DNA of 64,000 bases, from contig NZ_FNBO01000011.1 of assembly GCF_900102375.1 (NCBI RefSeq), positions 1-64,000 on the forward strand, written 5' to 3'. Shown here piece after piece: positions 1 to 38,886 of the stretch. The position numbers and the translations under genes are program-made. The notes under the pieces were generated by a model, which was not told where the DNA came from, made no database searches, and saw only the letters and a program-made list of their open reading frames with translations. Numbering within the stretch: the first letter of the stretch is position 1; each line of letters opens with the position of its first letter. The DNA comes from Halorubrum xinjiangense (lineage in GTDB: Archaea > Halobacteriota > Halobacteria > Halobacteriales > Haloferacaceae).

Positions 1-1077
1 ACCGACAAAACGGAGAGACGAAAGCGAATCCGCCCGGCTACCGCAAACACGGCGACGAACACCCGCGTTCGACGGTTACGTTCAAATCTGCCGGATTCAA
101 ACTCGACACCCAGTACGACCGCGTCCGACTCTCAAAAGGCTCGAATCTGAAAGAGTACTGGTCGGATTTCGTCCTGTGTAAGTACCGGACTCGCCCCGAT
201 GTTGACCTCTCCACCGTGGAGAACGTCCAACAAGTCAAGGTTGTCTGGACGGGCGACGAGTGGGAACTACACTTCGTCTGTAAGGTCGAAATCGACGTGT
301 CTGAAGCCCCCGGTGAGAAGACGGTGGGTGTTGATCTCGGTATCAACAACTTCGCCGCGCTTGCGTATGAAGACGGTCACAGCGAACTGTACCCGCTCAA
401 CTGCTTGAAACAGGACGACTACTACTTCAGCAAGCGAATCGCTCGGTGTGACGATTCGGACTCTGAGCAGGCCACTCGGCTGAATCAGAAGAAGTCGGCC
501 CGCCGCACCCACTACTTCCACACCCTCTCGAAACACATCGTCAAGCGGTGTGTCGAGGAGGATGTAGGGACGATCGTGGTCGGGGATCTCTCCGGCATCC
601 GTGAGGACGACGAGAACGATGAGTCGAAGGACTGGGGCCGGCGCGGGAATCTCGACTTACACTCGTGGGCATTCGATCGCTTCACAAAACTGCTCACCTA
701 CAAGGCCGAAATGGAAGGCATCACGGTTGAGGAGGTGTCTGAGCGGGATACCTCGAAGTCGTGTTCGTGCTGTGGCCGGAAGCGTGACGCGAACCGTGTT
801 GAACGTGGACTGTATGTCTGCGATGAGTGCGGGACAGTGGCGAACGCGGATGTGAACGGCGCTGAGAACATTCGACAAAAAGTATCTCCAAGTCCCGCCA
901 CGGATGGCGGTGATAGGAGTAACGGCTGGTTGGCACAGCCATCGACGTTCTTGTTTGACAAGGAAACTGGTGCGTTCGCACCTCAAGAACGGGTCACGTC
1001 GTAAACCACAATATCCCAACCCAGCGGCACGATGCCGTGGGAATCCTCGCGCTTCAGCGCGGGGAGGATGTCAAGAG
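1..1077 (+). mobile_element. IS200/IS605 (IS1341-type) element, right part
   Basis: After the tnpB stop comes the motif ATATCCCAACCCAGCGG (about 1010-1026) and then a strong hairpin at about 1043-1067 (TCCTCGCGC, loop TTCA, GCGCGGGGAGGA). This layout is typical of the right end of haloarchaeal IS1341-type elements, and the same blocks recur at 36,960-37,148. In characterised systems the guide (omega) RNA is transcribed from the 3' part of tnpB through this end. The RNA itself is inferred. The left end lies outside the window. Confidence 0.8.
3..1004 (+). CDS. tnpB: TnpB-type RNA-guided nuclease (IS200/IS605 OrfB), 5' end outside window
   Basis: The reading frame is open from base 3 and the true start lies before the window. 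TnpB proteins are RuvC-like nucleases guided by an RNA made from the element's own right end. Visible features: the RuvC-I strand with VGVDLGINN (Asp codon 333-335), the RuvC-II strand VVGDLSGI, a CxCC...CDEC zinc ribbon near 760-830, and the RuvC-III motif ADVNGAENI. Oddity: RuvC-II reads GDL, where many TnpBs have the catalytic Glu (EDL); a Glu may be supplied from elsewhere in the fold. No TnpA is visible. The 3' part runs directly into the right-end hairpin. Confidence 0.93.
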   Translation, partial: RQNGETKANPPGYRKHGDEHPRSTVTFKSAGFKLDTQYDRVRLSKGSNLKEYWSDFVLCKYRTRPDVDLSTVENVQQVKVVWTGDEWELHFVCKVEIDVSEAPGEKTVGVDLGINNFAALAYEDGHSELYPLNCLKQDDYYFSKRIARCDDSDSEQATRLNQKKSARRTHYFHTLSKHIVKRCVEEDVGTIVVGDLSGIREDDENDESKDWGRRGNLDLHSWAFDRFTKLLTYKAEMEGITVEEVSERDTSKSCSCCGRKRDANRVERGLYVCDECGTVANADVNGAENIRQKVSPSPATDGGDRSNGWLAQPSTFLFDKETGAFAPQERVTS

Positions 1078-1809: not shown

Positions 1810-2741
1810 TGGCGGACGACTGGTACGAGACGGTCTACGAGAACAAGCACGACGCGATCAACGACTTCATTAAGCAGAAACAGACGACGGGCCGCAGCCC
1901 GCGAACGCTGAACTCATACAGCCGGGTGCTCAAGCGGTACTACCACGAGCACTTCCCCGATCTCACACCTGCGGAGACCGAGGTGCGGCACATCGAGGAG
2001 TACCTCCGAATCTTGGACGACCGCGGGGTCAGTCAGAACACGAAGCGTCGCTACCTCGAATCGCTGTCGGCGTTTTTCAGCTACGCGATGAAACGGCCCC
2101 GGTTCGAGAACATCACGGGAAATCCCGCTGGTGTCGTTTTGGAAGAGATACCGAAGCAGATCCGGCAGCGTCCTGACTGTGCGACGTGGGAAAACGCGAA
2201 GAAGATAGTGAAAGCGATTCCGAACCCGCGGAACAAAGCGGTTGCCGTCCTACTGGCGAAGACCGGGTGTCGGTTGGAGGAAGCCTTGGAGATCAAGATG
2301 GACGACTTGATGCTGGACGAGGGATTCGTCCGGCTTCGGGAGCGGAAGGGTGGGAAGCAGACGGTAGTGCCGATTGACCGTGAGACGGTTCGCACGATCA
2401 AGCGGTTCAAGCTGATTCGTCGGGATACGGATCTGGAGTATCTGTTCGTGAGTATCCGCGACGACCGATTGACGAAGACAGTGATTCAGCGTGCGGTACG
2501 TGAGGCGGCGGTGGTCGAAGGTATCATGGATGAGGGCGAAGACCGATTCCACAAGAAGTTCACACCGCATACGTTCCGCACCGTGTTCACGACGTTGATG
2601 CGGAATCAGGGGATGAAGCAGCACGTCCTCCAGTACATCCGTGGGGATGCAGAGAGCGAGACGATGGACATCTACACCCGGGTTGATAGAGACGAAGCAC
2701 GGGAGGAGTATCTGGACTGCATCAAACCGTTGGGACTGTAA
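1809..2741 (+). CDS. Tyrosine recombinase/integrase (XerC/D-like)
   Basis: A 310-residue integrase that cuts and rejoins DNA through a tyrosine. It has an N-terminal SAM-like core-binding domain (about 12-95) and a C-terminal catalytic domain. Catalytic residues: Arg155 (GCRLEEAL), HTFR at 254-257, and Tyr289 (DIYTRV). The usual second His/Trp position reads YIRGDA, with Gly-Asp. The ATG at 1809 is chosen over the GTG one codon upstream because it forms the stop/start overlap with the preceding gene. No tRNA or obvious att duplication adjoins it, so the element it once moved is not delimited here. Confidence 0.93.
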   Translation: MADDWYETVYENKHDAINDFIKQKQTTGRSPRTLNSYSRVLKRYYHEHFPDLTPAETEVRHIEEYLRILDDRGVSQNTKRRYLESLSAFFSYAMKRPRFENITGNPAGVVLEEIPKQIRQRPDCATWENAKKIVKAIPNPRNKAVAVLLAKTGCRLEEALEIKMDDLMLDEGFVRLRERKGGKQTVVPIDRETVRTIKRFKLIRRDTDLEYLFVSIRDDRLTKTVIQRAVREAAVVEGIMDEGEDRFHKKFTPHTFRTVFTTLMRNQGMKQHVLQYIRGDAESETMDIYTRVDRDEAREEYLDCIKPLGL

Positions 2742-8952: not shown

Positions 8953-9030
8953 CTAGAGTCGATGGCCTCGGCACTCATAGGGCTCGTCGTCGCCGGGTGC
9001 CGAGTCCGGCTCGGAGCGGTGGTTCGTCAT
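8953..9030 (-). pseudogene. Truncated rubrerythrin-like zinc mini-protein
   Basis: A 25-codon frame starting MTNHRSEPDSAPGDDEPYEC. Short haloarchaeal rubrerythrin-like zinc proteins start in this style (acidic linker, then PYEC..CG), but here the frame stops three codons after CRGHRL, without the second Cys of the first knuckle or the second pair. A TATA-like CCTTTTATTC lies at 9058-9067 on the correct strand. The cut falls at the GC boundary, consistent with truncation by insertion of the neighbouring island. Confidence 0.35.
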
Positions 9031-9081
9031 CGGCCGCTCGTCGGTAGTCGCGCCGTCGAATAAAAGGATCCGGCCGCGCCG

Positions 9082-38258: not shown

Positions 38259-38353
38259 TCAGGGCACATTCTCTTCCCCCGTACTTAATTCATGAGACAT
38301 ACGACCGCCGAGGTGTCCTGTCCTCCGGAAATAGTAACAATCAACCATATTCG
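38259..38353. other. Upstream region of the histidine kinase
   Basis: Short AT-richer spacer between the kinase start and the tRNA-derived array. ATTAAGTAC near 38,281-38,290 on the minus strand is a plausible TATA for the kinase. The tRNA-Leu and array are on the same strand upstream. Confidence 0.4.
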
Positions 38354-38801
38354 CACCCGTGGAATTCGAACCTCGCTCACCTCCCGTTCACTGATTCGAA
38401 TCCCTTTCAATCAGAGACGCGGCGCTCACGGTGTGTGAGCGCCGCGATATGCGGGGGAAGGGATTCGAACCTCACTCACTCCGTTCGCTGCTTCGAATCC
38501 TTCCTTGTCTACATTTGCGGCTCGCGGATTGCTCGCCGCAGGAGTGCGGGGGAAGGGATTCGAACCACAGTCGGACGTGCTCGCTTCGCTGCGCGCGACC
38601 TCCCTGATTCGAATCCCTTTCAATCAGAGACGCGGCGCTCACACACCGTGAGCGCCGCGATATGCGGGGGAAGGGATTCGAACCAACGAAAGACGGTCCG
38701 GGCGTGCGGCTCGCTCCGCTCGCCGTTCCGGGCTGCGACTTTCTGGGTTCGAATCCCTTCCTTGTCTACACCTGCGGCTCGCGGATTGCTCGCCGCAGGA
38801 G
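38354..38801 (-). repeat. Array of tRNA-Leu 3'-end copies with inverted partners and variable spacers
   Basis: The tRNA-Leu 3' sequence (TGCGGGGGAAGGGATTCGAA on the + strand) recurs at 38450, 38545 and 38663, besides the tRNA itself at 38802; a worn copy starts at 38361. Each copy is followed by a spacer of different sequence and length (about 21-64 bases) and then an inverted partner TTCGAATCCCTT (at about 38395, 38492, 38608, 38748). After the partner comes one of two alternating tails: CAATCAGAGAC plus hairpin GCGGCGCTCAC/GTGAGCGCCGC, or CCTTGTCTACA plus TGCGGC/GCCGCA. The order is A, B, A, B, tRNA, so a two-part unit of about 212 bases is duplicated. Confidence 0.85.
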
Positions 38802-38886
38802 TGCGGGGGAAGGGATTCGAACCCTCGAACCTCTACAGGAGCGGATCTTAAGTCCGCCGCTTTTGGCCAGGCTCAGCCACCCCCGC
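38802..38886 (-). tRNA. tRNA-Leu (UAA)
   Basis: Eighty-five bases on the minus strand fold as a class II tRNA. The acceptor stem pairs GCGGGGG with CCCCCGC plus discriminator A. The anticodon stem GCGGA/TCCGC encloses CTTAAGA, giving anticodon UAA. There is a long variable arm and a T-arm GGGTTCGAATCCC. No CCA is encoded and no intron is visible. Copies of its last 20 bases follow downstream as an array. Confidence 0.95.

Follow-up and report, generated by a model that had tools for sequence, protein, structure and literature searches.

The tRNA-Leu(UAA) array of Halorubrum xinjiangense

The window, a 64,000-nucleotide stretch of the Halorubrum xinjiangense genome, carries on its minus strand a gene for tRNA-Leu(UAA) (38801-38886; ARAGORN and Rfam). 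Its terminal 22 nt (38802-38823; D0) are the living version of a sequence that recurs downstream. Three exact copies of this 22-nt end (GGTTCGAATCCCTTCCCCCGCA) follow on the minus strand at 38663-38684 (D1), 38545-38566 (D2) and 38450-38471 (D3), each matching at 22 of 22 positions, and a fourth, worn copy (D4; GGTTCGAATTCCACGGGTGCGA) is the most distal, at 38351-38372. The initial annotation had counted three clear copies and one worn one, and its count held at 22 nt. It had also given each copy an inverted partner at variable distance; four partners are present, at 38747-38759, 38607-38619, 38491-38503 and 38394-38406, with 0, 1, 3 and 1 mismatches per 13 nt and with spacers of 19-61 nt.

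These elements form four units on the minus strand, each ordered as hairpin tail, inverted half-site, spacer and direct copy of the tRNA end. Unit 1 comprises tail hairpin A (38762-38801; CTCCTGCGGCGAGCAATCCGCGAGCCGCAGG...), the inverted T-loop half-site I1 (38746-38761; 16 nt complementary to the tRNA end), a 61-nt spacer of family S2 (38685-38745; CCAGAAAGTCGCAGCCCGG...CCGGACCGTCTTTCGTT) and D1. Unit 2 has tail hairpin B (38620-38662), its loop flipped relative to that of unit 4, followed by I2 (38607-38619), a 40-nt spacer of family S1 (38567-38606; CAGGGAGGTCGCGCGCAGCGAAGCGAGCACGTCCGACTGT) and D2. Tail hairpin A returns in unit 3 (38504-38544) with I3 (38491-38503), a shortened 19-nt spacer of family S4 (38472-38490) and D3, and tail hairpin B returns in unit 4 (38407-38449), where a perfect 12-bp stem spans 38418-38446, with I4 (38394-38406), a 21-nt spacer (38373-38393) and D4. 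The tails therefore alternate in the order A-B-A-B, as originally described. Measured with their flanking arms, copies of the A-tail repeat (68 nt) share 97% identity and those of the B-tail repeat (84 nt) 93%, and the earlier description of a duplicated two-part unit is borne out for tails and arms; as a description of the whole unit it is too strong, because the spacers have changed and all four differ in sequence.

Arrays recur at other tRNA genes and in other haloarchaea

We scanned the 300 bp behind each of the 44 tRNA genes of this genome for a 21-nt match, with at most 3 mismatches, to the gene's own end. A copy was found at 17 of 44 genes, compared with 1 of 44 in an upstream control, where the single match is a neighbouring duplicate of tRNA-Asp. 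Since about 0.002 matches are expected in total behind all 44 genes, chance is excluded. In a genome of another haloarchaeal family (G058), 10 of 31 tRNAs carry an array, whereas a second genome of that same family (G043) has none at the 31 sampled (p = 0.0008), and a phylum-wide sample gave a copy at 1 of 35 tRNAs, in a genome (G037) of the same order as Halorubrum xinjiangense. The fractions from these tRNA scans (17/44, 10/31, 0/31 and 1/35) are unbiased. The layout was thus recovered where the initial annotation had suggested looking, behind further tRNA genes of this genome and in different genomes, and its recurrence contradicts the idea that the spacers are remains of unrelated integrated elements with no conservation elsewhere.

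Within Halorubrum, the tRNA-Leu end was found within 2 mismatches in 51 of 52 genomes, and 44 of the 52, counted from the matches listed, have at least two neighbouring copies of it. Among the 50 of 52 Leu loci that were parsed (all except L101 and L128), 0, 1, 2, 3 and 4 downstream copies occur at 6, 27, 15, 1 and 1 loci, respectively. A 20-base motif from the spacer end was found in at least 118 stretches of GTDB genomes, all but one archaeal and nearly all from named haloarchaea; the genera among the stretches listed include Haloferax, Halobellus, Natrinema, Natronococcus, Halomarina and Halogeometricum, and the sole non-archaeal record among those 118 is a Gemmatimonadetes MAG. Copies accompany 91 of 116 parsed tRNAs in this set, a fraction that is biased because the loci were fetched by the spacer-end motif. 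We found no description of such arrays in the open-licence PMC literature, a scope that leaves out subscription papers, and on our best reading short gene-less units stacked behind tRNA genes are a kind of element for which no description was found.

Units end sharply at the T-loop and at the tRNA terminus

A set of 171 units, which omits those with more than 4 copy mismatches or longer than 260 bp, shares one layout: tail hairpin, inverted half-site (tRNA positions 54-66), spacer and direct copy of positions 53-73, with 128 of the 171 direct copies perfect over 21 nt. Across 114 distinct units, identity of the copy to the host tRNA is 0.91-1.00 per position at 53-73, only 0.11-0.28 at 49-51, and falls after 73 from 0.6 to about 0.3. 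We place the left edge at 52/53 because copies behind tRNAs having C52 mostly carry a different base there (4 of 5). For the inverted half-site, complementarity to its own tRNA is confined to 54-66. Complementarity to own versus other tRNAs is 0.97 versus 0.45 at position 57, 0.65 versus 0.24 at 64 and 0.59 versus 0.27 at 65, with no own-tRNA excess at 67-73; because the inverted sites were chosen by similarity to 53-65, these values are somewhat too high, whereas the absence of signal past 66 is unaffected. The inverted site therefore comprises the 7-base T-loop together with the 3' strand of the T-stem; the direct copy contains this segment and, beyond it, the remainder of the tRNA end. According to PMC8371274, integrases of archaea use three parts of tRNA genes as targets, namely the anticodon stem-loop, the T stem-loop and the 3' end, and the 52/53 edge fits the T stem-loop class.

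Units of typical size (about 70-170 bp) contain no genes, and only 3 of 132 inter-copy gaps in the 118 named loci exceed 300 bp. One gene-bearing unit of about 800 bp lies in the tRNA-Leu(UAA) array of Halorubrum vacuolatum DSM 8800 (L134/L233), with its insert between inverted site and copy. One of its two ORFs encodes a MarR-type HTH protein, the other gave no family match and no significant PDB match (best E 0.09), and neither is integrase-like; reading the pair as a toxin-antitoxin system is only a guess. A second unit type, which combines an inverted copy of the acceptor strand, a hairpin resembling CTCCCG...CGGGAG and a copy restricted to about 61-73, occurs at L141, L147, L255 and, in genome G000, at tRNA-Gly(tcc) and tRNA-Arg(gcg). 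Separately, two complete tRNA-Asp genes lie 103 bp apart ahead of an array at G000:C10:134737-134912 (L062), and in many relatives the first copy behind tRNA-Asp is spaced at 100-105 bp.

Spacers are shared among tRNAs whereas tails mostly stay with one

The spacers fell into 30 clusters, and 8 of the 10 clusters with at least two units cover more than one tRNA type, the largest holding 53 units from 15 isoacceptors. The tails fell into 66 clusters, of which only 4 of the 14 with at least two units do so. Tails thus mostly stay with one tRNA, whereas spacers are shared among isoacceptors. Within Leu arrays the two modules combine almost freely and are only weakly linked (mutual information 0.50 versus 0.31 after shuffling; p = 0.015). 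Orientation also varies: two spacers (L093 and L113), among the 30 clusters, are clearly inverted between their arms, and the loops of tails change orientation from copy to copy, including inside the Leu(UAA) array of the window, while clearly inverted whole tails number 0 of 127, with three near-ties. The spacers of L119 and L129 look chimeric. The spacer-end motif has 11 matches in the 3.26-Mb genome, all in arrays or a tRNA: nine fall in inverted half-sites downstream of tRNAs, one in a direct copy in reverse orientation and one within tRNA-Gln.

Arrays differ by whole units and decay away from the tRNA

In arrays of at least two units, inner copies are perfect more often than last ones (44 of 50 versus 24 of 38; p = 0.006), which is the pattern that entry of new units at the tRNA would predict. 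When similar units from different genomes were compared (93 pairs), the copy had diverged by 0.026 and the remaining unit by 0.105 substitutions per site, an approximately 4-fold difference. Both the gradient and the low divergence fit copies that were recently living tRNA ends; the low divergence also fits selection on the copy.

Relatives, compared at one genome per species, differ by whole units. L105 has exactly one unit more than L132 at the tRNA, with the tail of the next unit almost unchanged, and L127 has one distal unit more than L114, differences that can equally be read as gain or as loss. Between L088 and L090 the differing block is bounded by inverted sites. L100 versus L107 was considered as a clean empty site and rejected, as flank homology starts far from the tRNA. 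Near-identical units within one array were seen in 5 of 38 multi-unit arrays and alike adjacent pairs in 3 of 50; because the units of one array seldom resemble one another, we rejected tandem duplication as their main source.

Hairpin stems behave as DNA palindromes

The predicted fold of the Leu(UAA) array lies far below that of shuffled sequences (z = -10.7), and the array is on the tRNA's strand. Both observations would suit a transcribed pre-tRNA trailer whose hairpins assist tRNA processing or termination or are themselves small RNAs, and so would the lower divergence of the copies. A transition in one strand of a stem is as likely to produce G-T as A-C, of which RNA stems tolerate G-T alone. 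We tallied stem mismatches in 153 of the 171 units. In the tails 1192 of 1230 pairs are Watson-Crick, with 5 G-T and 7 A-C mismatches, and the spacer stems have 1 G-T and 3 A-C in 368 pairs, as against 39 G-T and 1 A-C in 1210 pairs of the tRNA stems (tails versus tRNA, p = 4e-5). Because the two mismatches balance in the tails, unlike in tRNA stems, the tails are maintained, or produced, as DNA palindromes. The inverted and direct arms do show more G-T than A-C (154 versus 69), in the direction expected of RNA; 68 of the G-T mispairs come from position 53 alone and 19 from position 60, the latter because a one-base deletion shifts the register, and at 54-59 the counts are 22 versus 13. The proposal that read-through RNA would present a series of T-arm-like stems was not supported: tail and spacer hairpins have no G-U excess, and the inverted partner is not a T-arm, because it pairs with the T-loop and the 3' half of the T-stem. 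Most tRNAs, moreover, lack an array (27 of 44 here and 31 of 31 in G043), and an Rfam scan of the array locus matched the tRNA alone. We therefore regard a functional trailer RNA as unlikely. Elsewhere in the window Rfam matched the sense overlapping transcript sot0042 (880-1065, plus strand) and the C/D box RNA sR-tMet (8964-9035, minus strand).

Near-perfect DNA palindromes with balanced mismatches speak for local rearrangement, which we rate as less likely than insertion: template switching at the T-loop palindrome (TTCRAA) during replication or repair would yield inverted and direct copies with no dedicated enzyme. On the same reading, gene conversion, haloarchaea being polyploid, and recombination between short repeats could at a later stage have spread, flipped and mixed the modules. 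The flipped tail loops, the two inverted spacers, the chimeric-looking spacers and the change at inverted sites between L088 and L090 all point to such events, and PMC3119063 describes repeat-mediated deletion at short direct repeats in Haloquadratum. Local rearrangement leaves unexplained, however, the constant limits of copies (53-73) and inverted sites (54-66), the presence of one spacer family behind up to 15 isoacceptors and the scarcity of alike neighbours.

Ordinary islands at the same tRNAs use other attachment sites

The 3' ends of tRNA genes are classical attachment sites, and islands are present at these tRNAs, with integrase-bearing elements sitting between tRNA and array. The arrays might accordingly be attachment-site fragments left by lost ordinary islands or proviruses. 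At tRNA-Gly, islands L254, L255, L257 and L258 (genomes G004, G016, G012 and G022) have a terminal fragment running from the anticodon arm to the tRNA end, and at L171 and L202 a copy of about 61-73, with a last ORF that we read by eye as an integrase, precedes an older array unit. Because these attachment sites differ from the edges of the units, ordinary islands did not leave the units: such fragments yield neither 53-73 copies nor inverted sites nor spacers, and the rarity of inter-copy gaps above 300 bp is likewise at odds with lost islands. Remains of this kind are very improbable, and the initial annotation's view that repeated ordinary integration fails to account for the inverted partners and hairpins agrees with the use of other attachment sites by integrase elements at the same tRNAs. 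Near tRNA-Gly(tcc) in Halorubrum lie several distinct islands (L254-L258), with sizes from about 1 to 12 kb. An autonomous T-loop element at tRNA-Gly was considered and rejected, the far copies there belonging to islands with other attachment sites or to an unrelated insert within a tail (L256).

No integrase-bearing element using the T-loop edge (52/53) was seen among the islands examined. Among PF00589 recombinases in this genome, G058 and G043, none was clearly common to both array genomes and missing from G043, a weak negative, as some ORFs are in the wrong frame (e.g. L382, L384, L386 and L397). A tyrosine recombinase domain (PF00589, in a 312-aa ORF) lies near the start of the window (2190-2690, plus strand). 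Searches of phage and plasmid records with the window's array, and of IMG/VR with two unit motifs, gave no match. We rejected a viral or plasmid source on these results; the one IMG/VR match to the bare tRNA end (L038) is not followed by an array of this kind within the part inspected.

A candidate mechanism of stepwise insertion

The explanation that we favour, at about even odds, is that miniature tRNA-specific units without genes were inserted stepwise at the T-loop by a trans-acting recombinase, stacked up into the array and were later shuffled at palindromes. On this model a site-specific recombinase, most likely of the tyrosine type and acting in trans, would exchange strands within the 7-bp T-loop; the incoming unit would bring a matching 53-73 segment and so keep the tRNA intact, while the old end would be displaced downstream as a direct copy that decays afterwards. 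The inverted half-site would be a second putative binding site for the same enzyme, and spacers could later be swapped, flipped or lost through recombination among the many short direct and inverted repeats. Insertion is supported by the sharp edges at the T-loop and tRNA end and by the whole-unit differences between relatives. The searches that yielded no candidate enzyme and no mobile form count against it, as does the unit size, since about 70-170 bp is very short for a double-stranded circle, and the flipped tail loops and the two flipped spacers are no proof of a recombinase, because plain palindromes also yield them.

The nearest parallel to stepwise insertion is offered by T-loop tyrosine integrases such as that of mycobacteriophage Ms6, in which, as proposed for the arrays, a 7-bp T-loop crossover displaces an exact copy of the tRNA 3' end and the incoming DNA restores the tRNA; PMC1762012 gives the 7-bp T-loop as a possible strand-exchange site with a 26-nt core. 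In the arrays the copy likewise starts at the putative crossover loop and reaches the tRNA terminus. Unlike those elements, array units are small, gene-less and several deep, each with an inverted half-site and hairpins, and no integrase was found in or linked to them, the 800-bp unit included. IntSNJ2 resembles the fragments at L171 and L202 in that its attachment site, 14 nt long according to PMC8371274, lies at a tRNA 3' end in haloarchaea, but such sites give a copy of only about 61-73 and belong to gene-bearing elements.

Comparisons with shufflons and integrons are likenesses only, the defining features of each being absent as far as our analysis goes. The sfx sites of the shufflon recombinase Rci have, as described in PMC11852207, a 7-bp core with one conserved arm, alternating orientation and a variable other arm, as do the arrays. 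The arrays have no coding segments, however, and no invertase was found nearby. Segment inversion is rare (two clear spacers among 30 clusters), and a strict shufflon was rejected, as the tail inversion that it predicts is absent (0 clear cases of 127, with three near-ties).

Integron attC sites consist of a direct and inverted box pair around a variable hairpin, as array units do, and both systems are polar arrays of exchangeable modules. In an integron-like system the tRNA gene would be the entry site, the inverted half-site, spacer and direct copy would fold as a single strand into a recombination hairpin recognised by its shape, and the replacement tRNA 3' end would be the sole cargo. This reading is improbable. 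Unlike in integrons, the site lies inside the tRNA, and gene cassettes are lacking apart from the one gene-bearing unit and the few long gaps. If it were true, conservation of the T-loop would let spacers move among all tRNA genes of a cell.

The arrays differ further from CRISPR arrays in that spacer families are common to several tRNAs and genera, spacer lengths are uneven and phage and plasmid records gave no match. Like MITE/PATE elements, array units are short, non-coding, palindromic repeats in a mosaic of modules, and BIME/REP repeats share these features. In contrast to both, the arrays occur strictly at tRNA 3' ends and have arms matching the tRNA beside them, and the genome-wide dispersal of MITE/PATE elements is absent, all 11 motif matches lying in arrays or a tRNA. 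Nor do they resemble a known structured RNA, having no Rfam match beyond the tRNA and stems that are not G-U tolerant (5:7 versus 39:1).

Implications for haloarchaeal genomes

If stepwise insertion is correct, many haloarchaea would remake the 3' ends of about a third of their tRNA genes through repeated, tiny, gene-free insertions, and a layer of mobile or recombining DNA would have been overlooked by annotation pipelines. The presence of arrays in G058 and their absence from G043, within one family, offers a route to the enzyme. The arrays would then be a natural record of polar insertion events, in which the movement of DNA units of about 100 bp and the spread of a site preference between tRNA genes would become testable.
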